Shown piece by piece: positions 1,371 to 33,967 of a DNA stretch of 39,519 bases. The DNA lies in contig JAQWTH010000027.1 of assembly GCA_029242795.1 (NCBI GenBank), forward strand, positions 1 to 39,519, given 5' to 3'. This stretch comes from Candidatus Pelagibacterales bacterium (GTDB lineage Bacteria; Pseudomonadota; Alphaproteobacteria; Pelagibacterales; AG-422-B15). The notes under the pieces were generated by a model. It had not been told where the DNA came from and did not search any database. It worked only from the letters and a program-made list of their open reading frames with translations. The translations under genes and the position numbers were made by a program. Every line of letters starts with the position of its first letter. Position 1 is the stretch's first letter.

Positions 1371-2699
1371 ATGAAATCAAAGAAAAAATCAACAAAATCA
1401 AAGAAAAATACTGCAAAACTAATAATAAACTCTAATACATATCAACTCCCTATACACAAAGCTACTGAAGGAAGTAATGTAATTAATGTTACAAAACTTT
1501 TTTCTGAATCAGGTTATTTTACATATGATCCCGGCTTTACCTCAACCGCGGCATGTGAATCAAAAGTTACCTTTATTGATGGTGAAAAGGGAATACTACG
1601 TTATAGAGGAATTGACGTATCTGAATTAGCGAAAAAGAGTGATTTCATAGAAGTTTCTAACTTGCTTATTTATGGAGATTTACCAAATCAAAAACAATTA
1701 AAGAAGTATAGAAAATTAATTATAAATCATACGATGCTTAATGAGCAGCTGATAAAGTTCTTTAACGGATTTAGAAGAGATGCTCACCCAATGGCAATGA
1801 TGGTTGGAGTAATGGGCGCTCTCTCAGCATTCTATCAAGACTCATTAGATATAAATGACCCTCATCAGAGAATGACAGCTGCAAGAAGAATAATAGCTAA
1901 AGCAGCTACTATTGGCGCAATGTCATATAAATATTCAATTGGTCAACCATTCGTTTACCCTGATAATAATCTGTCTTATGCTGAAAATTTTTTAAATATG
2001 TGTTTTTCTGTACCATCTGAAAATTATAAAATTCCTAAAATAATATCAAAAGCAATGGATATAATTTTTATACTCCATGCTGATCATGAGCAAAACGCTT
2101 CAACATCTACAGTAAGATTAGCTGGCTCATCTGGCGCTAATCCATTTGCTTGTATTGCAGCTGGTGTTGCATCTCTTTGGGGGCCTGCTCATGGTGGCGC
2201 CAACCAAGCTGCATTAGAAATGCTTGAAACAATTGGTAATAAAAATAATATCGATAAATATATTAAAAAAGCAAAAGATAAAAAAGATGAATTCAAACTC
2301 ATGGGTTTTGGACACAGAGTTTATAAAAACTATGATCCTAGAGCTAAAATACTAAAAAGTATTTGTAAAAAGGTATTGGCCCATGTTGGCGTAAAAAAAG
2401 ACCCTATATTAGAATTAGCAATAGAACTAGAAAAGAAAGCATTAAAAGATTCTTACTTCATTCAAAAAAAATTGTATCCAAACGTAGACTTTTATTCAGG
2501 AATAATTCTTAGAGCGATAGGTTTCCCGCCAGAGATGTTTACAGTAATTTTTTCAATTGCTCGTACAGCTGGATGGACAGCACAATGGACTGAAATGATA
2601 GATGATCCAATTCAAAAAATTGGTAGGCCTAGACAACTTTATACAGGAAACAAAAGTCAAAAATATGGCAAGATCAGATCAAAAAAGAATACAAGGTAA
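1371..2699 (+). CDS. gltA: Citrate synthase (type II)
   Basis: Condenses oxaloacetate and acetyl-CoA to citrate, the entry step of the TCA cycle in the cytoplasm. At 442 residues it is slightly longer than usual because of a Lys/Ser-rich N-terminal tail of about 13 residues. The catalytic triad is visible: His274 in GPAHGGAN, His315 in GFGHRVYKN and Asp373 in PNVDFYSG; the [11 protein letters not shown] segment is also present. No clear Shine-Dalgarno precedes the ATG. An AT-only hairpin (AATAAA-TAG-TTTATT, 1348-1362) sits 8 bases upstream. It ends one base before the stop of the convergent lpxI gene, leaving no room for a terminator. Elsewhere in alphaproteobacteria gltX and lpxB flank gltA; neither is here. 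Confidence 0.98.
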
Positions 2700-2700
2700 G

Positions 2701-3523
2701 CTAAATAAAATACAAATTAAGCTTATTCTCTTTTAGCATTTTAATTATCTTTGACTTATTGAACACAATCGTATTACTTTTTCTTATAGCAATACCATTT
2801 AAATTTGCCTTAACGGCATTTAGTATTGTTTTAGGGCCAATTACTGGATTATCCGTATTATTTGATTGATTAATTTTTGAAATCTTAATCAGAATGCCTT
2901 CTCTATTATTTAATTTTAATATCTTCTTTTCTGATGCTACTCTTTTTAAAAGTTGATCAGTCCCTTCAGTCGCTTCTATTCCTAATATATATCCATTAGA
3001 AACAACAGCAGCTTGAGCGTTGTCATACTTGGAAATTTTATTTAATAATGAAATACCTTTTTTGATATCAAATTGATCATTATTTTTATCATAAAAAATA
3101 TATTCTTTATCAAATTTATTTAAATAGAAACTATCGTCTATAGATTTAAGTGATTTTGCTATAAAACCCTCATTTTTTAAAATTTTCAAAATTAAATCCA
3201 GCGTTTGGCCGTCACCGTTTTTATATTCATTCATTATTTGAGAAATATATTTTGCTAATACGTTATCAATTTTGATATTTGATAAATTGGGTCTATTAAC
3301 TTTTCCTATAAGGCACACGTCTCTGATATTGAATTTTTTTAACAAGTTAATAATTTTTGAGAATTCATAAACTTTTAAAGAAAATATATTTTTTTTTTTT
3401 TAATGAAATTGAAGTAGATAGATTTATAAAGATTGTATTCGAATATTTTTTTTTTGAATTTTTATAAATCTCTGCAGTTAGAGGTTCATATCCACCTATA
3501 AAAGCAATGTTACTTTTTTTCAT
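2701..3523 (-). CDS. lpxI: UDP-2,3-diacylglucosamine pyrophosphatase LpxI, frame-disrupted at an A13 tract
   Basis: LpxI hydrolyses UDP-2,3-diacylglucosamine to lipid X in lipid A synthesis, replacing LpxH in alphaproteobacteria. The N-terminal part starts at ATG 3523, overlapping lpxA by 14 bases, and begins MKKSNIAFIGGYEPLTAEIY. It runs to a TGA at 3365-3367. The rest is in another frame and ends with TAG at 2701. It holds the family motifs IGKVNRP, GDGQTLD, GIEATEGTDQLLKR and DNPVIGPKTIL. The frames join if one A is dropped from the run of 13 at 3389-3401, giving ...SLKKKNIFSLKVYEFSKII... and a 273-residue protein of normal family size. Upstream of the run the second frame meets a stop, so it cannot be an independent full protein. 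Causes could be sequencing error, mutation, phase variation or transcriptional slippage. The usual partner lpxB is missing next door. Confidence 0.9.
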
Positions 3524-4289
3524 AGCGACATAAGCCCCTACTCGATTTAACTGAAATAAATTCACTTATTTTATTTATCAAAATATTTCCATTGTTTTTA
3601 ATATTATCTATTTTAGTTTGAATAGACACATTGCTTGAAAAAATATCTTTAATAAAATTATTAACTGATTGAATATCAGATTTTCTATAATTAGCTCTTT
3701 TCAGTCCAATTAGATTAAGGCCAGTAATTTTTGCTCTATTTCCGATAGCTAAAGCAAAAGGAAATACATCATTTTCAACGGCACTCATACCACCAATCAT
3801 AGATAATTCTCCAATTCTACAAAATTGATGAATTGCTGATAATCCACCTATAACAGCATTATCTTCAACAATTACATGGCCCCCTAATGTAGCTTGGTTA
3901 GCCATAATAACGTTGTTTCCAACAATGCAATCATGAGCAATATGTACAGCTGTCATAAAAAGAGATTTATTACCAATTATTGTGTTGTATCCACCCCCTT
4001 CGGTGCCAGAATTGACAGTACAAAATTCACGAAAAGTATTAGAGTCACCAATCTTTACAAATGACTCCTCACCAGAAAATTTTAAATCTTGTGGAATTGA
4101 ACCTATTGAACAAAATGAGAAAATTTTATTATTTTTTCCTATACTTGTATTTCCAATTATTGAACTGGATGCAGATATTTCAGTATTATCTCCTATAATA
4201 ACATTACCATCAATATAAACATAAGGACCAATTCTTACATTAGAACCCAATTTAACTCCTTTACTAATAATTGCTGTAGGATGTATCAT
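3510..4289 (-). CDS. lpxA: UDP-N-acetylglucosamine acyltransferase LpxA
   Basis: First committed acyl transfer of lipid A synthesis: moves a 3-hydroxyacyl chain from acyl-ACP to the 3-OH of UDP-GlcNAc in the cytoplasm. The 259 residues are a left-handed parallel beta helix of hexapeptide repeats (for example IGPYVY, IIGDNT, VIIGG-like turns) to about residue 180, followed by a helical C-terminal domain. His119 in VHIAHDC corresponds to the catalytic His125 of E. coli; His154 in SAIHQFCRIG is also conserved. The C-terminal SSRGLCR is typical for alphaproteobacterial LpxA. The start overlaps the fabZ stop as ATGA, and the end overlaps lpxI by 14 bases, so the three are translationally coupled. 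Confidence is very high. Confidence 0.98.
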   Translation of the reverse strand: MIHPTAIISKGVKLGSNVRIGPYVYIDGNVIIGDNTEISASSSIIGNTSIGKNNKIFSFCSIGSIPQDLKFSGEESFVKIGDSNTFREFCTVNSGTEGGGYNTIIGNKSLFMTAVHIAHDCIVGNNVIMANQATLGGHVIVEDNAVIGGLSAIHQFCRIGELSMIGGMSAVENDVFPFALAIGNRAKITGLNLIGLKRANYRKSDIQSVNNFIKDIFSSNVSIQTKIDNIKNNGNILINKISEFISVKSSRGLCRYEKK

Positions 4290-8549: not shown

Positions 8550-9704
8550 CTATTTATTAATAATAGTTTTAATATTTGCATCTACCCAGATACTGGATTC
8601 GTTTAAATCTTCAATATTTGGTTCATTTATATTTTGATGAGATTTGAAATAAAGCTCTATGACCCTTTCATTAAAATTAACAATTTTTGTATACTTAATA
8701 AAACCTTCAAGAAATAATTTAACTAATTTATCATTGATATAGTTGAATAGATGTGGGGCTATACCATCTTTTTGCATAATATATTTGCCAAGACTGAATG
8801 CTGGAAATCGCTGGTTATCAATCTCAAGGAATTCTAGTATTTTTAATTTGGTTAAATCTAAATCATGATTATTAGATCTATAGTCCTTATTTGGAAAAAA
8901 TAAACTTGAAATTGGAATCTCCATATTCGGTTGACTTAGAAAAGCATAAGATGAATTATCGTTATAATTTATAATACCATGAATTATTGACTGAGGATGT
9001 ATAATTGCATCAACTTCATTAGGCTGAAGATGAAAAAGATTTTTTGCTTCAATAAGTTCAAGTGATTTATTCATCATATTTGACGAATCGACTGAGATTT
9101 TATTTCCCATCTTCCATTTTGGATGTTTGATCGCTTGTTCAGGAGTTATATATTCAAATTTATTTAAATCTAAGTCTAAGAAAGGCCCACCCGAGGCAGT
9201 TATGGTTATATTCTTTATAGGTTTATAATTTCTATTCAACAATTGATAAATTGCATTATGCTCAGAGTCTAAGGGAAATATACTAGTTTCAAACTTATGG
9301 CATTTATTAAAAAGTATTTTTCCGAGTGAAATTATACATTCTTTATTTGCTATTGCTAAAGTTTTTCCTGTTTCCGCAATTCTTAATGCTAAAGATGCCC
9401 CCGATAGACCGGAAATAGCTAAAATATAGATATCAATATCTTCATTAATAAACGACTCAAAATTTTTAATACCATAAACAGTATTTTTTTTTTCTAAAAT
9501 TTCATTTTTATCATTTGATAAATCTTCGTTTGAGACTCCTAAGTTGTCACATTTATAGCGATTGGAAATATCAATTAGACTTTCGATGTTCTGATTGCAA
9601 GTTATGCCTTTTAAGCAATACTTATCATTTGTCTTATCTAGGATTTTTAGTACAGAGGTACCAATTGATCCTGTTGCACCAAATAAAATAATATTTTTAG
9701 GCAT
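8550..9704 (-). CDS. dxr: 1-deoxy-D-xylulose 5-phosphate reductoisomerase Dxr
   Basis: Makes MEP from DXP with NADPH, the committed step of the non-mevalonate isoprenoid pathway that supplies UppS in the same operon. The 384-residue protein shows the NADPH-binding GATGSIG at 9-15. Metal ligands are Asp146 and Glu148 in FPLDSEHNAI and Glu219 in LELIEA. It also has SGGPF at 171-175, HPKWKMG at 194-200 and IIHPQSIIHG. Length is slightly under the usual 390-400. Codons around residues 70-74 contain an uninterrupted A10 run (9484-9493), in frame here but prone to slippage. Its start overlaps the cdsA end by 8 bases. Confidence is very high. Confidence 0.98.
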   Translation of the reverse strand: MPKNIILFGATGSIGTSVLKILDKTNDKYCLKGITCNQNIESLIDISNRYKCDNLGVSNEDLSNDKNEILEKKNTVYGIKNFESFINEDIDIYILAISGLSGASLALRIAETGKTLAIANKECIISLGKILFNKCHKFETSIFPLDSEHNAIYQLLNRNYKPIKNITITASGGPFLDLDLNKFEYITPEQAIKHPKWKMGNKISVDSSNMMNKSLELIEAKNLFHLQPNEVDAIIHPQSIIHGIINYNDNSSYAFLSQPNMEIPISSLFFPNKDYRSNNHDLDLTKLKILEFLEIDNQRFPAFSLGKYIMQKDGIAPHLFNYINDKLVKLFLEGFIKYTKIVNFNERVIELYFKSHQNINEPNIEDLNESSIWVDANIKTIINK

Positions 9705-10389
9705 AATAAATTAATTTATGAAAATCAGATATAATAAATAAAAAAAATACAAAAATAAAAGAGTCCATTCTATCTAAAAACCCTCCATGGCCAATAAATA
9801 AAGTTCCAGTATCTTTTAAGTTAGATCTTCTTTTTATAAATGATACGATTGCATCGCCAATAAAAGAAAAAGAACAAATTAAAGAAGCTAAAATAAATAA
9901 ATTTAACAATATTTTATCATAAAAATAATAAGTAAAAAATAAATTTAATAGAATAACAGTTATAAAGCCTGAAATAGAACCACTATATGTCTTTCCCTTA
10001 CTTAATCTTGGAAATATTTTCTTACCTTGAAATAGATTTCCACCAATATATGAAAAAGTATCAAAAACCCAAAGAGTAAGAAGTATATAAATAAATATAA
10101 AAAAATTATTATCTAATGAGAAATAATAAAATGGACATAATATTAAAGTATATGCTGATATAAAAATATATATAGCTACTCCTATTTTAAAATTTGATAA
10201 TTTGAAAATATTCACTAATTCACTTAAAATCATAACTAAAAAAAAAATAAATAGTAAGAAGAGCAAGATCCCCCCTTGGTACAAAGAATAAATAAAAATA
10301 GGAACAAAGATTATTACAGAGAATAATCTTTTAACTAACTCTATATTAAAGAGTGATCTAAAATTTGATAAAATATTATTATTTACCAT
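9697..10389 (-). CDS. cdsA: Phosphatidate cytidylyltransferase CdsA
   Basis: Integral inner-membrane enzyme that makes CDP-diacylglycerol from phosphatidate and CTP, the precursor of all phospholipids. The 230 residues are mostly hydrophobic, with several membrane helices. Conserved segments are DTFSYIGG, KTYSGSISG and the C-terminal signature KRRSNLKDTGTLFIGHGG followed by FLDRMDS. The signature usually has Pro before GHGG; here it is Ile. The protein is short for the family (often 260-280) but contains all key regions. It overlaps uppS by 11 bases and dxr by 8, fitting the frr-uppS-cdsA-dxr order of proteobacteria. Confidence is high. Confidence 0.95.
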   Translation of the reverse strand: MVNNNILSNFRSLFNIELVKRLFSVIIFVPIFIYSLYQGGILLFLLFIFFLVMILSELVNIFKLSNFKIGVAIYIFISAYTLILCPFYYFSLDNNFFIFIYILLTLWVFDTFSYIGGNLFQGKKIFPRLSKGKTYSGSISGFITVILLNLFFTYYFYDKILLNLFILASLICSFSFIGDAIVSFIKRRSNLKDTGTLFIGHGGFLDRMDSFIFVFFLFIISDFHKLIYYA

Positions 10390-11090
10390 AATTTCTTTTT
10401 CTCTGGAGATATTTGAGTAGTGATATCTTTAGATGATTAAACTTAAAATCAGGCCATAATTTTTTTGTAAAAATAAGTTCTGAGTAAGCTGACTGCCATA
10501 GAAGAAAGTCACTCATTCGTAATTCTCCTCCAGTTCTTATTATTAAATCTGGATCAGGTATTCCATCGCTGTATAAATATGTTTCAAGTTTATTTACTTT
10601 TTTTTTGTTAACTACTATTTGTTTGACAGCTTCGATAATTTCTTCTCGTGCACTATAATTAAATGCTAAATTGATTTGTATGCCTGTATTCTGTTCTGTT
10701 TTACTTTGAACGTCGTTGATTATTTTTTTTATTGATTTTGGTAATTTTTTATTTGAACCAAAGTGTTTAATTTTAAAATTTTCCTTAAGCGATAGATTTT
10801 CGAATTTATTGTATGTTTGTTTTACAAAATTAAACAGGGCATTAATCTCAAGACTTGATCTTTTCCAATTATTTACAGCAAAAACATAAAGCGTAATGTA
10901 TTTCAACTCTATTGTTTCTTCGTTATTTATTTTTAAGAATGCTAATGGCGTTGTTAATTCCTTCTTTGTGACCAAGACTAGTTTTTAACTTATGCTTTTT
11001 TGCCCATCTCCGATTTCCATCCATAATAATTGCAAGATGATTTAATTTTATTATATTATCTTGAAATTTTTTATGAGCACGTAGGGTCAA
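10379..11090 (-). CDS. uppS: Undecaprenyl diphosphate synthase UppS, frame-disrupted
   Basis: Cis-prenyltransferase that makes the C55 carrier lipid for peptidoglycan and LPS. The C-terminal frame (from about 10950 to 10379) carries [49 protein letters not shown] and the YSELIF segment. The essential N-terminus [16 protein letters not shown] and [10 protein letters not shown] is in another frame, open from TTG 11090 and closed by TAA at 10923-10925. Removing one base between about 10925 and 10955, for example one A of the A5 run at 10930-10934, joins them into 236 residues, the normal size. TTG 11090 lies 5 bases after the frr stop and puts 22 residues before MDGN; ATG 11024 is possible but too late for the family. 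A conserved, essential gene split this way suggests a sequencing error or a rescued lesion. Confidence 0.9.
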
Positions 11091-14109: not shown

Positions 14110-17100
14110 TTATTCGTCAAAACTTACTTCTTTAACCCCATAAATGGATCTTATTCGTTCAATCAAATTCGTATCAACTTGATAGAGATTTGGCAATGCA
14201 AGTCTTTGATTTTCAACAATAATATTTATTTTGTGATTTCCTTTTTTTAAATTAATTGCTTTGAATTCGTTCAGTGAAAATTTCTCATTGGCATATATTT
14301 GCAAAAGGGACGCCTTTGATTTTACCTTTCTAGCCTCTGTGTCAAAGGTCTTATTTTGATTTGTAAATGATGAGTATGACTGATTATTCATTTTAATAAC
14401 ATCTGCTATTTTATATATTTTTTTAGCTTCGCCCCTAAGGCCATTTCCATCATCAGAAAAATCAATACCAATAGCGTATGAGTCGCCTTCAACTAAAATA
14501 TCTCTGTACTTACGAAGATTGTTTTCAAATATAATGAGTTCATATATAGAGCTAAGATCTGAAAAATTTAAGAAGGCATATGCGTTCCCTCTGGCTGACC
14601 GTTTTTCCTTTTTTGATAATAGCGTTCCAGCTAACAAAACATTTTTTTCATTATGAAAGTTTTTATTAAGCTTAATTGTTTCAAAGTTTTTAATATCTAA
14701 ATTAGAAACTTTATTCAGAAATTGATTCAATGGATGTCCAGATAAATAAAAACCAAGTATTTCAAATTCTTTCATTAGCTTCATCTCCTCACTCCATCTT
14801 TCTTTTGAGGTAAACTTATATTCAAATTTTAGGGCCTCACCAAAAATATCTTCTTGATTGCTATTATTTGTATCGTGAAAATGTTTTAAATGTTTAATTA
14901 TTTCAGGACATTCATTAAATATATTTTCTCTTTTAATATTAAATGAGTCAAAACTACCTGAGCATGCTAAGGCTTCTAGTGTTTTTTTATTAGACACTGA
15001 TGAACTCACTCTTGTTAAGAAATCTTCAAAGTCTTTAAAGATGCCATTTTTATCTCTTTCTTCTTCAAGTTCCTTAATTGCCTCTATTCCAACGTTCTTT
15101 ATAGCTCCGAGTGCATATGAAATTCCATCTCCGTCACGCACAAAGTATGAATTTGACTTATTTACATCTGGAGCAATCAAAGGAATCTTCATTCTATCTA
15201 ATTCTTGTTGAAATATCGCTAGTTTATCTGTGTTATTAATATCTAATGACATAGATGCAGCAAAAAATTCAATTGGGTAATGTTTTTTTAAATATGCAGT
15301 TTGAAAAGCAATTAAGGCATAGGCCGCTGCATGACTTTTATTGAATCCATAATCCGCAAATTTTGATAATAGTTCAAATATATTATTTGCTTCGTTATCT
15401 TTTAGTCCATTTGAAATACAACCTTCTACAAATCTTTTCTTTTGAGCTGTCATTTCTTTTTGAATCTTTTTACCCATTGCTCTTCTTAGAAGATCTGCTT
15501 CACCATCTGAATAGCCCGATAATTCTCTAGCGACACCCATAACTTGTTCTTGATAAATAATAACCCCGTATGTCTCCTTTAATAAATCTTCTAGCAATGG
15601 ATGTACATAATCTGGCTTTTCCCTGCCGTGTTTTCTCTCAATATAAGTTGGAATATTGGCCATTGGTCCTGGTCGATACAAGGCAACAAGAGCAATAATA
15701 TCTTCAAATTTATCAGGTTTTAAATTTTTAAGAGTATCTTTCATACCTGGACTTTCTAATTGAAAAATACCTGTTGTTTCACCAGTTCCTAATAGATCAA
15801 ATGTTTGTGTGTCAGTTAAATCAATTTCTGATATGTCAAATTTTTCATACTTATTCACCAGCTCGACACAATTATTAATTAGCGTTAAGGTTTTTAAACC
15901 CAAAAAATCGAATTTTACTAACCCTGCATTCTCTACCCACTTCATATCAAATTGAGTTAGAAAAATATTTGTATCTGGATCACTATATAATGGTACATCC
16001 TTATAAATAATGTCCTTTGATATAACTACTCCAGCAGCGTGTATTGAAGCGTGTCTCTTTAAGCCTTCTAATTTAAGAGCGATACTTAAAAGTTTTTTAA
16101 TTTTAGGATTTTTGTTTGCTTCTTCCGTCAGCTTTGGTTCATCATCAATATATTCTTGAAGGCTTAATTGCCTCGAGGGATCGAATGGTATCAATTTAGT
16201 CAAATAGTCTACTTGACCATATGGAACACCAAGTACTCTTCCAATATCTCTTAATACTGCTCTTGCTTGAAGTTTACCAAAGGTAATAATTTGAGCGACA
16301 TGATCTTTACCATACTTCTCATAAACATAGTTGAGAACTTCGTCTCTTCTGTCCCTACAGAAGTCAATATCAAAATCAGGTAATGAAACACGCTCAGGAT
16401 TTAAAAATCGTTCAAAAATTAAACCAAAATGAATTGGGTCTAAGTCAGTTATCTCAAGACACCATGCAACCAATGAGCCAGCGCCTGAACCTCTTCCAGG
16501 TCCAACTGGTATATTATTATTTTTCGCCCATTTAATAAAATCGGCAACAATTAAAAAATATCCCTCATATTTCATATTAATAATAATATCTAATTCACTA
16601 TCTAATCTCTTCTGATATTCACTCCTTAATTGATTTGATTCTTCATCATTTTCTATTTTTTTCATTTTTAAAGTCTGCATCACTCTTTTTTCGAGTCCTT
16701 CGTTTGAAATTTTTCTAAGAAGATCTTCTTCTGTATTTTCCGCTCCTTTTATAAAAACTGGTAGTATCGGATTTTTAATTTCAGGCTTAAATGAACACCT
16801 TTGAGAAATTTCAATTGTATTTAATAAAGTTTCTGGAAGATCATGGAATAAAGATTCCATTTCATCAACAGACTTAAAATAATGTTGATCAGAAAATCTA
16901 TATCTATCCAATTGTGATACAAATTGCTTCTTTTCTATACAGCTTAATGCATCATGAGCCTCATAATATTCTGGTGACTCAAAGTAGACCTCATTAGTGG
17001 CGACTAAAGGTAATGTATTATCATAAGCTAAATTAAGAAGTGAATTTTCATTTTTTTTATTTGAATTTCCTAGTCTTTGGATCTCTATATATAGATTATC

Positions 17101-29485: not shown

Positions 29486-29791
29486 TCATCCTTTCAAGCT
29501 ATTGATTTTCTCAATTTCAATAGTCCCAGCATTTCTATTATATATCACCAATATTGCTAAACCTATTGCGGCTTCAGCAGCAGCAACAGTTAAAACAAAT
29601 AAAGAAATTATCTGTCCTGTAAGATCGCCTAAGAAATAAGAAAAAGAAACTAGATTGATATTGACTGATAGAAGAATGATCTCGATTGACATTAATATAA
29701 TTATTACGTTTTTTCTGTTGAGAAAAATACCAATAACCCCGATGCTAAAAAGAAGTGCTGACAATATTAAAAACTGATTTAATTCAATCAT
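29486..29791 (-). CDS. nuoK: NADH-quinone oxidoreductase subunit K
   Basis: Small membrane subunit of complex I with three helices. The 101 residues are of exact family length. Conserved elements are [28 protein letters not shown], containing the first essential Glu (MSIE), and [15 protein letters not shown], containing the second Glu in helix 3. Both lie on the central hydrophilic axis for proton transfer. Its start overlaps the nuoJ stop by one base. Confidence is very high. Confidence 0.98.
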
Positions 29792-30411
29792 TATATATCA
29801 ACTCCTTCATTTGATTTAGGATCGACCATCGTTATGGTTGATTTATATTTACGATCTAATTGAGATTGAATTGATTGTCTTTTTACGCCCTCACGAGTCC
29901 TTAGAGTCAAAACAATTGAGCCAATCATGGCAACAAGTAAAATAACACCCGAAAGTTGAAAATATAAAATATAATCTGTGTATAGGATGGACCCAATAGC
30001 CTCTGTATTTGTTAAATTTTCAAATTTTATCATTGGATTAACTAAGATTTGAATATTTGAGAGATCAAATTTGGTATTAATGAGAACTATAATTAGTTCA
30101 GATATAAAAACCACACCTACAAAAAATCCAATTGGTAAATATTGAAGAATATTATTCTTATCGAGGCTTATTTTAAAATCTAACATCATAACAACAAATA
30201 AAAATAAAACTGCGACAGCTCCTACGTAAACGATAATTAAAATCATTGCCAGAAACTCAGCGTGTAAAATTATAAAAAGCCCTGCACCATTAAAGAATGT
30301 TAAAATTAAAAATAATACTGAATGAACTGGATTTTTTGAGGTAATCACCATCAAAGAAGAAAGGAGAATAACAGTTGAAAATATATAAAATGATAACAAG
30401 GATGCTGTCAT
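29791..30411 (-). CDS. nuoJ: NADH-quinone oxidoreductase subunit J
   Basis: Membrane subunit of complex I with five helices. The 206 residues show the conserved [24 protein letters not shown] and the helix-3 segment [20 protein letters not shown], which contains the flexible Tyr and pi-bulge region. The C-terminal tail after about residue 170 is polar and typical of alphaproteobacteria (RTREGVKRQ). It starts 3 bases after the true end of nuoI at 30415, a spacing that only makes sense if nuoI is read to that point. Confidence is very high. Confidence 0.97.
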
Positions 30412-30414
30412 TTT

Positions 30415-30900
30415 CTATCTATACTCCGCATCTTTTTTTAGATTTTCGGCAATTGCGCTTTCCCACTTATCACCATTATCTAAGAGCTTCTCTTTTGTAT
30501 AATAAAGTTCTTTTCTAGTTTCAGTGGAAAATTCAAAATTAGGTCATTGAACAATTGCATCTACCGGACAAGATTCTTCACATAATCCACAATAAATACA
30601 TTTTACCATATCAATATCATATCTAGTTGTTCTTCTCGTTCCATCATCTCGCGGTTCAGATTCAATAGTTATGGCTTGAGCTGGACAAACTGCCTCACAT
30701 AATTTGCAGCCAATGCATCGTTCTTCACCACTTGGGTATCGCCTCAAAGCATGTTCTCCTCTAAACCTTGGGCTTAATTTTCCTCGTTCATAAGGGTAGT
30801 TTAATGTGGCTTTCTTTTTGAAGAAATATTTCTGTGCTAATATGTAAGCCTTAATAAAGTCGATGAGCAGAAAAGATTTTATAAAATTAATAATTTTCAT
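30415..30900 (-). CDS. nuoI: NADH-quinone oxidoreductase subunit I, interrupted by an in-frame TGA
   Basis: Ferredoxin-like subunit that carries clusters N6a and N6b in the complex I electron chain. Residues 1-118 contain both motifs: Cys62, 65, 68, 72 ([12 protein letters not shown]) and Cys101, 104, 107, 111 ([12 protein letters not shown]). Codon 119 is TGA (30544-30546), where the family has the Gly of a GPN triplet. The same frame continues [20 protein letters not shown] to ...NLKKDAEYR and a TAG at 30415-30417. That makes 162 codons including the stop, the normal NuoI length. A single GGA-to-TGA change explains it. At least six neighbours (fabZ, lpxD, lolD, lolC, nuoH, nuoG) stop at TGA, so the code is standard here. 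Likely a sequencing error or recent nonsense mutation; readthrough is possible. A product truncated at 118 would keep both clusters. Confidence 0.93.
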
Positions 30901-31913
30901 GAAAATACAGGAGCTAGATTGAAGAAAAATAAAACGCTAGAGGTAACCACAACAGCTAATAATGAAAGAGGCAAAAATACTTTCCAACCAAGTCTCATTA
31001 ATTGATCATATCGATACCGTGGAACAAAGGCTTTGACCATCGATATCATATAAAAAATCACCATCATCTTAACTAAAAACCATATAAAACCAGGTATAAG
31101 GTTGAATGGAGCTACATCAATGGGTGGATACCATCCGCCAAAGAACATGATGGTCATCATTGCGCACATCAGTAAGATATTTATGTACTCACCTAGAAAA
31201 AAAAGGAGAAATGGCATAGCGGAATATTCTGTTTGATAGCCGGCTACAAGCTCGGACTCTGCTTCAGGTAAATCGAATGGCGGTCTGTTTGTTTCCGCAA
31301 GCGCTGAGATAAAAAAAACAACAAACATTGGGAACAAAGGAATAAAGAACCAAATATTTTTTTGAGCATAAACAATTTCTGAGAGGTTTAGAGAACCAAC
31401 GCACATTAATACTGTTACAATTACAAATCCTATAGAAACCTCATATGAAACCATTTGAGCTGCAGATCGTAATGCCCCTAAAAAGGGGTATTTACTATTT
31501 GATGCCCAACCAGCCATCAGGATTCCATAAATTCCTAAAGAGCTCATAGCAAATATATATAAAACTCCAACATTTATATCAGATAAAACAATATTTTCTT
31601 GAATAGGAATAACTGCCCAAGCTGCTATTGCTAACGTCGAAGTTAATATTGGTGCAACAAAATAAATAGTTTTATCAGCTCCATCTGGAATAATGATTTC
31701 TTTAAACAAAAATTTTAATCCATCGGCTGGTATTTGAAATAAACCAAAAGGTCCAACTACATTTGGTCCTTTTCTTTTTTGAACAGCTGCCCATATTTTT
31801 CTATCCGCAAATAAAACGATGACTACACCTAAAAGCAATGGAACAAAAATAAGAAGACAGAGACCAACAATAAAAAATAAATGAAAAAGGTTCTCAGAAA
31901 TTAGAGCTATCAT
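30897..31913 (-). CDS. nuoH: NADH-quinone oxidoreductase subunit H
   Basis: Membrane subunit linking the arms of complex I and forming much of the quinone chamber. The 338 residues have about eight helices. Conserved segments are [32 protein letters not shown] (N-terminal amphipathic region), [24 protein letters not shown], and the acidic loop [41 protein letters not shown] follows near the C-terminus. The start overlaps nuoG (ATGA) and the TGA stop overlaps nuoI (ATGA). Confidence is very high. Confidence 0.98.
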
Positions 31914-33967
31914 ATAGCTTTTCCATTTCTTAACTCTTTACGGATTTGACTACATTCAGCCATAGTCTTCGATAATCTTGATATTGAGTCAGTTAAGTAA
32001 AAATCTTTAATCATTGATCCAATTTCTTTATTATCAAATGAAATTTTTGATGCTTTATTTGCAAGCAATCTTTTGTAAGGCCTATCAGCAGATACTTGAT
32101 TAAATAAATCTGGATATTGATTTTTAATTTTTTTACGAACATCGTCCAATGTCACAAAACCCCAATTCAAATTAAGCATTTCACTAATTTGATTAATAAT
32201 TTTCCAATCAGTTTTTGCCTCACTTGGTGGAAAACTTGCCTGATAGGCATATTGAAGTCTGCCTTCAGTATTAATATAAATCGCGTCTTTTTCAGTGTAA
32301 GCTGCAGAAGGAAGAATTAAGTCTGAATTACTTGCGCCTCTATCGCCATGTGAGCCCATGTAAATAATTTTTGTGTTTTGAAATTTACTATAATCAATCT
32401 CATCCGCTCCAAATGAAAATAAAAGTTTTAAAGACCCATTCTCTGCATCTGCATATATATCTTTTAGTGATCTGCTGGATTGATAACAGCCCATATCTAA
32501 CGCACCGATTCTTGACGCTGATAATTGAAGAGTATTAACACCGTTCCATGAAGAGTCTAAGAAAGAATATTGATGAACAATATCTTCTATTAGCGAATAA
32601 GCATTAAGACTATCATCACGACTCAATACTGATTGACCAATAATAATCATTGGCTTTTTTGCTTTGTCTAGAATCTTACAAAAATTATTTTCACCATCAG
32701 AAATAGATTTTAAGATATTCAGGTCATTTCCTAAATGTTCATAATCAAAAGTAAGATCAAATTTTTCACCAATCAATCCAATAGGAATATTTTTATTCAA
32801 TAAGTGCTTTCGTATTCGAGTATTTATTATAGGAGCTTCTTCTCTGACATTGCTACCAATTATTAATATGCAGTCGCTTTCCTCAATTCCATTAATTGTT
32901 GAATTAAATAGATATTGGGAACGATCTGAATATGGAAGTCTCACCCCTTCTTGCCTACATTCAATTTTTTTAATATTTAATGATTCTGATAGTTGTTTAA
33001 TTAAATATGATGTTTCAAGATCAATGAAATCTCCCACAAGAAAAGCAATTTCATCAGGTTTGTGATTTTTCATAAATGACAAACACTCATTTAACGCATC
33101 ATTCCAATCAGTGGCGTTCAGATTTCCATCATGTCTTACGTAAGGGGTATCTAGTCTCTGATTCAATAAACCATCACAAGCATATCTGGATTTATCAGAG
33201 ATCCATTCTTCATTAATATCTTCATTCAAACGTGGAAGTATTCGCTTAACTTTCCATCCATAAGTATCAACTCTTATATTTGAGCCCACTGCATCCATGA
33301 CATCGATTGTTTCAGTTTTTTTTAGTTCCCATGGTCTTGCTTCAAATTGATAAGGTTTTGATGTTAGTGCTCCCACTGGACAGAGATCAATCACGTTTGC
33401 TGACATTTCAGAGTCAATCGACTTTTCGAGATAGGTGGTAATTTCCATATTTTCACCACGATTTACTGCTCCTATTTCTTCAACTCCAGCAACTTCCTCT
33501 GAAAACCGAATACATCTGGTACAATGAATGCACCGTGTCATATATGTTTTGATCAAAGGACCCATATATTTTTCTTCGACTGAACGTTTATTTAAATCAA
33601 ATCTTGATTTACCAGAGCCATAGGCAACAGTTTGGTCTTGTAGATCACACTCTCCACCTTGATCACATACAGGGCAATCCAAAGGGTGATTGATTAACAA
33701 AAATTCCATCACACCCTCTCTAGCTTTTTTAACTTTTTGTGTATTGGTATGAATTGACATCCCCTCATTTACCGGCATAGCACAAGACGCTACAGGCTTG
33801 GGTGATCCTTCTACATCAACTAGGCACATTCGACAATTTCCCGCTATAGACAAACGATCATGGTAACAGAATCTAGGTATTTCTCTCCCAGCTTCCTCAC
33901 ACGCTTGAAGTATCGTCATGTCATCACGAACTTCAATTTCTGTTCCATCAACTTTTATTTTTGCCAT
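31910..33967 (-). CDS. nuoG: NADH-quinone oxidoreductase subunit G
   Basis: Largest peripheral-arm subunit of complex I. The 685 residues begin with a [2Fe-2S] domain ([22 protein letters not shown]). The His/Cys-ligated [4Fe-4S] motif [14 protein letters not shown] follows, then the second [4Fe-4S] motif [10 protein letters not shown] with a distal Cys in [13 protein letters not shown]. The C-terminal part is a molybdopterin-oxidoreductase-like domain without catalytic role in complex I. Length matches alphaproteobacterial NuoG. It overlaps nuoF by one base and nuoH by four. Confidence is very high. Confidence 0.98.

Follow-up and report, generated by a model that had tools for sequence, protein, structure and literature searches.

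LpxI is the UDP-2,3-diacylglucosamine pyrophosphatase acting at step 4 of lipid A synthesis, and members of the family hydrolyze UDP-2,3-diacylglucosamine to lipid X and UMP. In AT-rich bacteria, coding regions are depleted of A or T runs (PMC1088944). Blochmannia has genes whose frame is broken once, within a long A-tract, and transcriptional slippage is presumed to correct them (PMC3017870); for such rescue of poly(A)-frameshifted genes in Buchnera and Blochmannia, the same paper cites Tamas 2008 and Wernegreen 2010, and we refer to these two studies as they are presented there. When transcript errors were surveyed genome-wide in E. coli and Buchnera, those in homopolymers proved to be predominantly insertions, and no error restoring a frame was reported (PMC5574713). 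Here, we report a frame break at a run of 13 A in the lpxI gene of a Candidatus Pelagibacterales draft genome (GCA_029242795.1, G000 below). The window, i.e., the whole stretch of DNA that was analysed, is 39,519 nucleotides long.

On the minus strand of the window, a cluster of envelope genes, named from their sequences, runs uppS-cdsA-dxr-bamA-skp/ompH-lpxD-fabZ-lpxA-lpxI, with lpxI in the last place. An intact lpxA lies directly upstream of it (3510..4289, minus strand), and an intact gltA, read from its sequence as citrate synthase, is its convergent neighbor (1371..2699, plus strand). The larger part of lpxI (2701..3399, minus strand, with the stop at 2701) is out of frame with the ATG and holds the rest of LpxI_N together with LpxI_C. 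Pfam matches to LpxI_N (positions 61–121, 35.7 bits) and LpxI_C (107 bits) were obtained in this downstream frame; both domains were also recognized in the intact protein of the congener, which aligns over residues 50–263 with PDB 4GGM (E 2.6e-20) and also with 4J6E, both of them solved LpxI structures. The window gene has both domains in common with known LpxI, and lpxA, fabZ, and lpxD adjoin it; it is probably an ordinary lpxI of a SAR11-type alphaproteobacterium. What sets it apart from known LpxI is the reading frame, i.e., the first 41–45 codons are in a different frame from the remainder owing to A13, so the single continuous start-to-stop frame of the family is split at this run.

On the minus strand, the run is flanked as AATTTCATT-A13-TATATTTTC and occupies 3389..3401, where the two frames meet. 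The 5' frame (3365..3523, minus strand) starts from the ATG at 3523 and has 52 codons, the stop ending at 3365; it is translated as MKKSNIAFIGGYEPL...SISLKKKK, then YIFFKSL, then a stop, and matches the N-terminus of the intact congener LpxI. If one A is removed, the two frames fuse into 273 residues, exactly the length of the intact protein. The coordinates, the A13 junction, and the joined length given in the original prediction are all correct, and the frame break is present in the sequence. A second A-run of lpxI, A10 at 3446..3455 (minus strand), is in frame and corresponds to A9 plus a T-to-A change relative to the congener. An internal restart at TTG 3345 was considered as well; it would give a protein of 214 amino acids lacking the conserved N-terminal IAFIGG stretch, which seems unlikely to work.

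The comparison genome is the closest one available, the congeneric single-cell genome AG-912-N08 (G002). Its alignment with the window spans the full 39.5 kb at 92.1% identity and has only six gaps: one of 3 nt in frame, two intergenic or at a gene edge, one harmless at the birA/coaX junction, and two gene-breaking, i.e., an additional A within lpxI and the loss of 2 nt from uppS. At the position of the tract, G002 has AAAAGAAAAAAA (12 nt, A4-G-A7) within an open lpxI of 273 amino acids, and the remainder of LpxI is 91.8% identical over 232 amino acids. Since the G002 gene is intact and collinear, the DNA identity is 92%, and exactly one net extra base is found here, a chance reading of the disruption is ruled out. 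G002 is also a relative with an in-frame gene and no long A-tract, the very finding that the original prediction had named as speaking against a biological frameshift. Elsewhere in the window, cdsA (9697-10389, minus strand), which adjoins uppS, has a dN/dS of 0.255 versus G002, the highest among the window genes and the 99th percentile genome-wide, and the synonymous divergence of dxr and uppS from G002 is also high (0.86 and 0.72). In nuoG-nuoK (29486-33967, minus strand), synonymous divergence from G002 is very low, 0.05–0.12 versus 0.3–0.8 in the surrounding genes, a pattern that suggests recent recombination.

Full-length lpxI was found in the loci of 27 of the 29 relatives, the remaining two being cut by contig ends, and none of the 29 loci examined has an out-of-frame or variable tract at the lpxI site. 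Four further relatives have no lpxI (G001, G018, G004, and G007); a loss of the lpx region there was considered, but assembly gaps are the simplest explanation, as lpxA was not found there either. Only weak matches to other hexapeptide proteins were returned by lpxA searches in these four, and the one in G018 is a different acyltransferase-like gene amid sugar-modification genes.

The break in lpxI is not alone. On the same contig, the 5' frame of uppS (10923..11090, minus strand) ends in ...ISILKNK, with its stop ending at 10923, and the remainder (10379..10933, minus strand; Pfam Prenyltransf positions 35–219, 190.6 bits) follows in another frame; at the break there is A5 (10930..10934, minus strand) in place of the A7 of G002. 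G000 has a single copy of uppS, a gene whose family was found in 14 of 14 control genomes. A third break lies in a ketoacyl-ACP synthase III gene on contig C12 of G000 (near 14447), at AAGAA and 25 codons before the end, and the last 25 residues past it are 100% identical to G002. Stretches totalling 858 kb of G000 and 880 kb of G002 were sampled; in the ~470 kb compared, 3 of 444 genes are frame-broken in G000 and 0 of 443 in G002. The A5 of uppS and the AAGAA of the ketoacyl-ACP synthase are non-slippery sites without a long homopolymer, at which slippage would be expected neither in replication nor in transcription. A single cause that would account for the three breaks together is sporadic indel error of the draft sequence.

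A search of the G000 genome for lpxH or a second lpxI, as the original prediction had proposed, found no match with the lpxH model and no second copy of lpxI; lpxA, fabZ, lpxD, and bamA are open in the window and lpxB is intact elsewhere. Beyond the tract, the dN/dS of lpxI versus G002 is 0.12, the 84th percentile of 438 genes (median 0.066). Of the 19 amino acid differences in this part, 5 were assigned to G000 and 10 to G002 with the family as outgroup, 4 being unassigned. Judged from these substitutions, lpxI beyond the tract is under purifying selection, with no acceleration in the G000 lineage and no sign of decay. Being intact in relatives, single copy, unaccompanied by lpxH, under purifying selection, and with lpxB present, lpxI is almost certainly in use. 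Without lpxH, a stable null of the single-copy lpxI would be expected to halt lipid A synthesis at step 4.

We consider it probable that the lpxI break is a consensus indel error of the draft genome, in an otherwise ordinary gene from which the cells make normal LpxI. A GAA/AAA (E/K) difference from the congener would have merged A4-G-A7 into one long A-tract, at a site that corresponds to a variable, lysine-rich loop of LpxI; the 13th A would then be a consensus error, one of the three frame-breaking indels in the compared sequence, and the extra base would presumably be absent from living cells, whose LpxI would be normal. The three breaks resemble the homopolymer and indel errors of draft assemblies in that A is gained or lost in A-rich stretches, in that unrelated conserved genes are hit, with uppS and ketoacyl-ACP synthase III as the further cases, and in that the sister genome has none of them. 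They differ from typical errors of this kind in their number, since a rate of three per ~470 kb is low and counts against an error, and in that two other A12–A13 tracts of the same genome are in frame. These two, A13 in murG (C10:2626-2638) and A12 in cmk (C6:29767-29778), indicate that the reads and the assembler do not always mis-size such runs. Of the three readings offered by the original prediction, i.e., slippage or phase variation, a gene on its way to loss, and a homopolymer sequencing error, the last is the best supported, by the in-frame gene of G002 and by the breaks in uppS and ketoacyl-ACP synthase III.

It is also conceivable, if rather unlikely, that A13 is real and recent, i.e., that the sampled cell or population carries a +1 allele, produced by replication slippage on a hypermutable A12 and either defective or polymorphic and reversible as in phase variation. 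A-runs of at least 12 are hypermutable, and lpxI has at least 12 A irrespective of the 13th base; no decay is seen in the remainder of the gene, which is how a very recent event would leave it. However, a stable null of this single-copy gene should stop lipid A synthesis as set out above, slippage on the tract cannot account for the break in the neighboring uppS, and a variable tract at the site occurs in no relative.

A fixed A13 corrected at the RNA level is harder to reconcile with the data, and we regard it as quite improbable. Here RNA polymerase slippage would shorten some of the transcripts to 12 A, and these would be translated in frame, as described in Buchnera and Blochmannia. Several features are shared with the rescued genes of these symbionts: one break at a long A-tract, a conserved gene under purifying selection past the break, an AT-rich genome, and no rate acceleration; A13 even exceeds the tracts of up to 12 nt described for obligate symbiont genomes (PMC3017870). 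In contrast to those genes, the out-of-frame tract is not maintained across species, not even in the congener with its in-frame A4-G-A7, and the lineage is free-living and avoids long tracts. Only three A/T runs of at least 11 occur in the 1.19 Mb G000 genome, those in lpxI, murG, and cmk, versus a first-order expectation (base and AA frequencies, 858 kb sampled) of ~23 runs of at least 11 and 3.3 of at least 13; the long runs of G000 are thus not enriched but selected against, and runs of at least 10 are strongly avoided. In the order, nearly all long A-tracts are in frame as well. When one A run of 12 or more was taken from the genome of each of 29 relatives, 20 of the runs lay deep within open frames, flanked on each side by more than 20 open codons; another five lay close to where an open frame starts, three lay outside such a frame (one of them beside an open frame of the opposite strand), and one was ambiguous. 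None of these 29 runs was seen to split a long gene as in lpxI. Genomes of the sister family (e.g., G033, G036, and G038) have up to ~48 A runs of at least 12 each, and those of the window's family 0–3. The rescue would moreover require a 1-nt deletion in the transcript, yet insertions dominate in homopolymer transcripts (PMC5574713), and the breaks in uppS and the ketoacyl-ACP synthase, which lie at sites that are not slippery and have no counterpart in the symbiont cases, need a separate explanation regardless. With the tract not shared and the other long A-tracts kept in frame, slippage or phase variation has found no positive support. It is very improbable that a free-living SAR11-type bacterium carries true frame breaks in both core envelope genes, lpxI at A13 and uppS at A5, and expresses these genes through slippage or recoding.

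That lpxI is under loss, in a cell giving up its LPS, is scarcely credible. The early truncation of the 5' frame, at 52 codons, speaks for it, but the dN/dS of 0.12, the lack of excess changes in G000, the intact lpx cluster, the presence of lpxB, and the lack of both lpxH and a second lpxI contradict it.

Were A13 real, an indispensable step of lipid A synthesis in a free-living streamlined bacterium would run on slippage-corrected transcripts, as described for endosymbionts, and if lpxI and uppS were both expressed in this way, slippage rescue would extend from insect endosymbionts to streamlined ocean bacteria. Under the reading that we favor, a consensus indel error, the lesson is one of caution: a story of slippage or phase variation in an AT-rich draft genome shrinks to an indel when the neighboring genes and a sister genome serve as controls.
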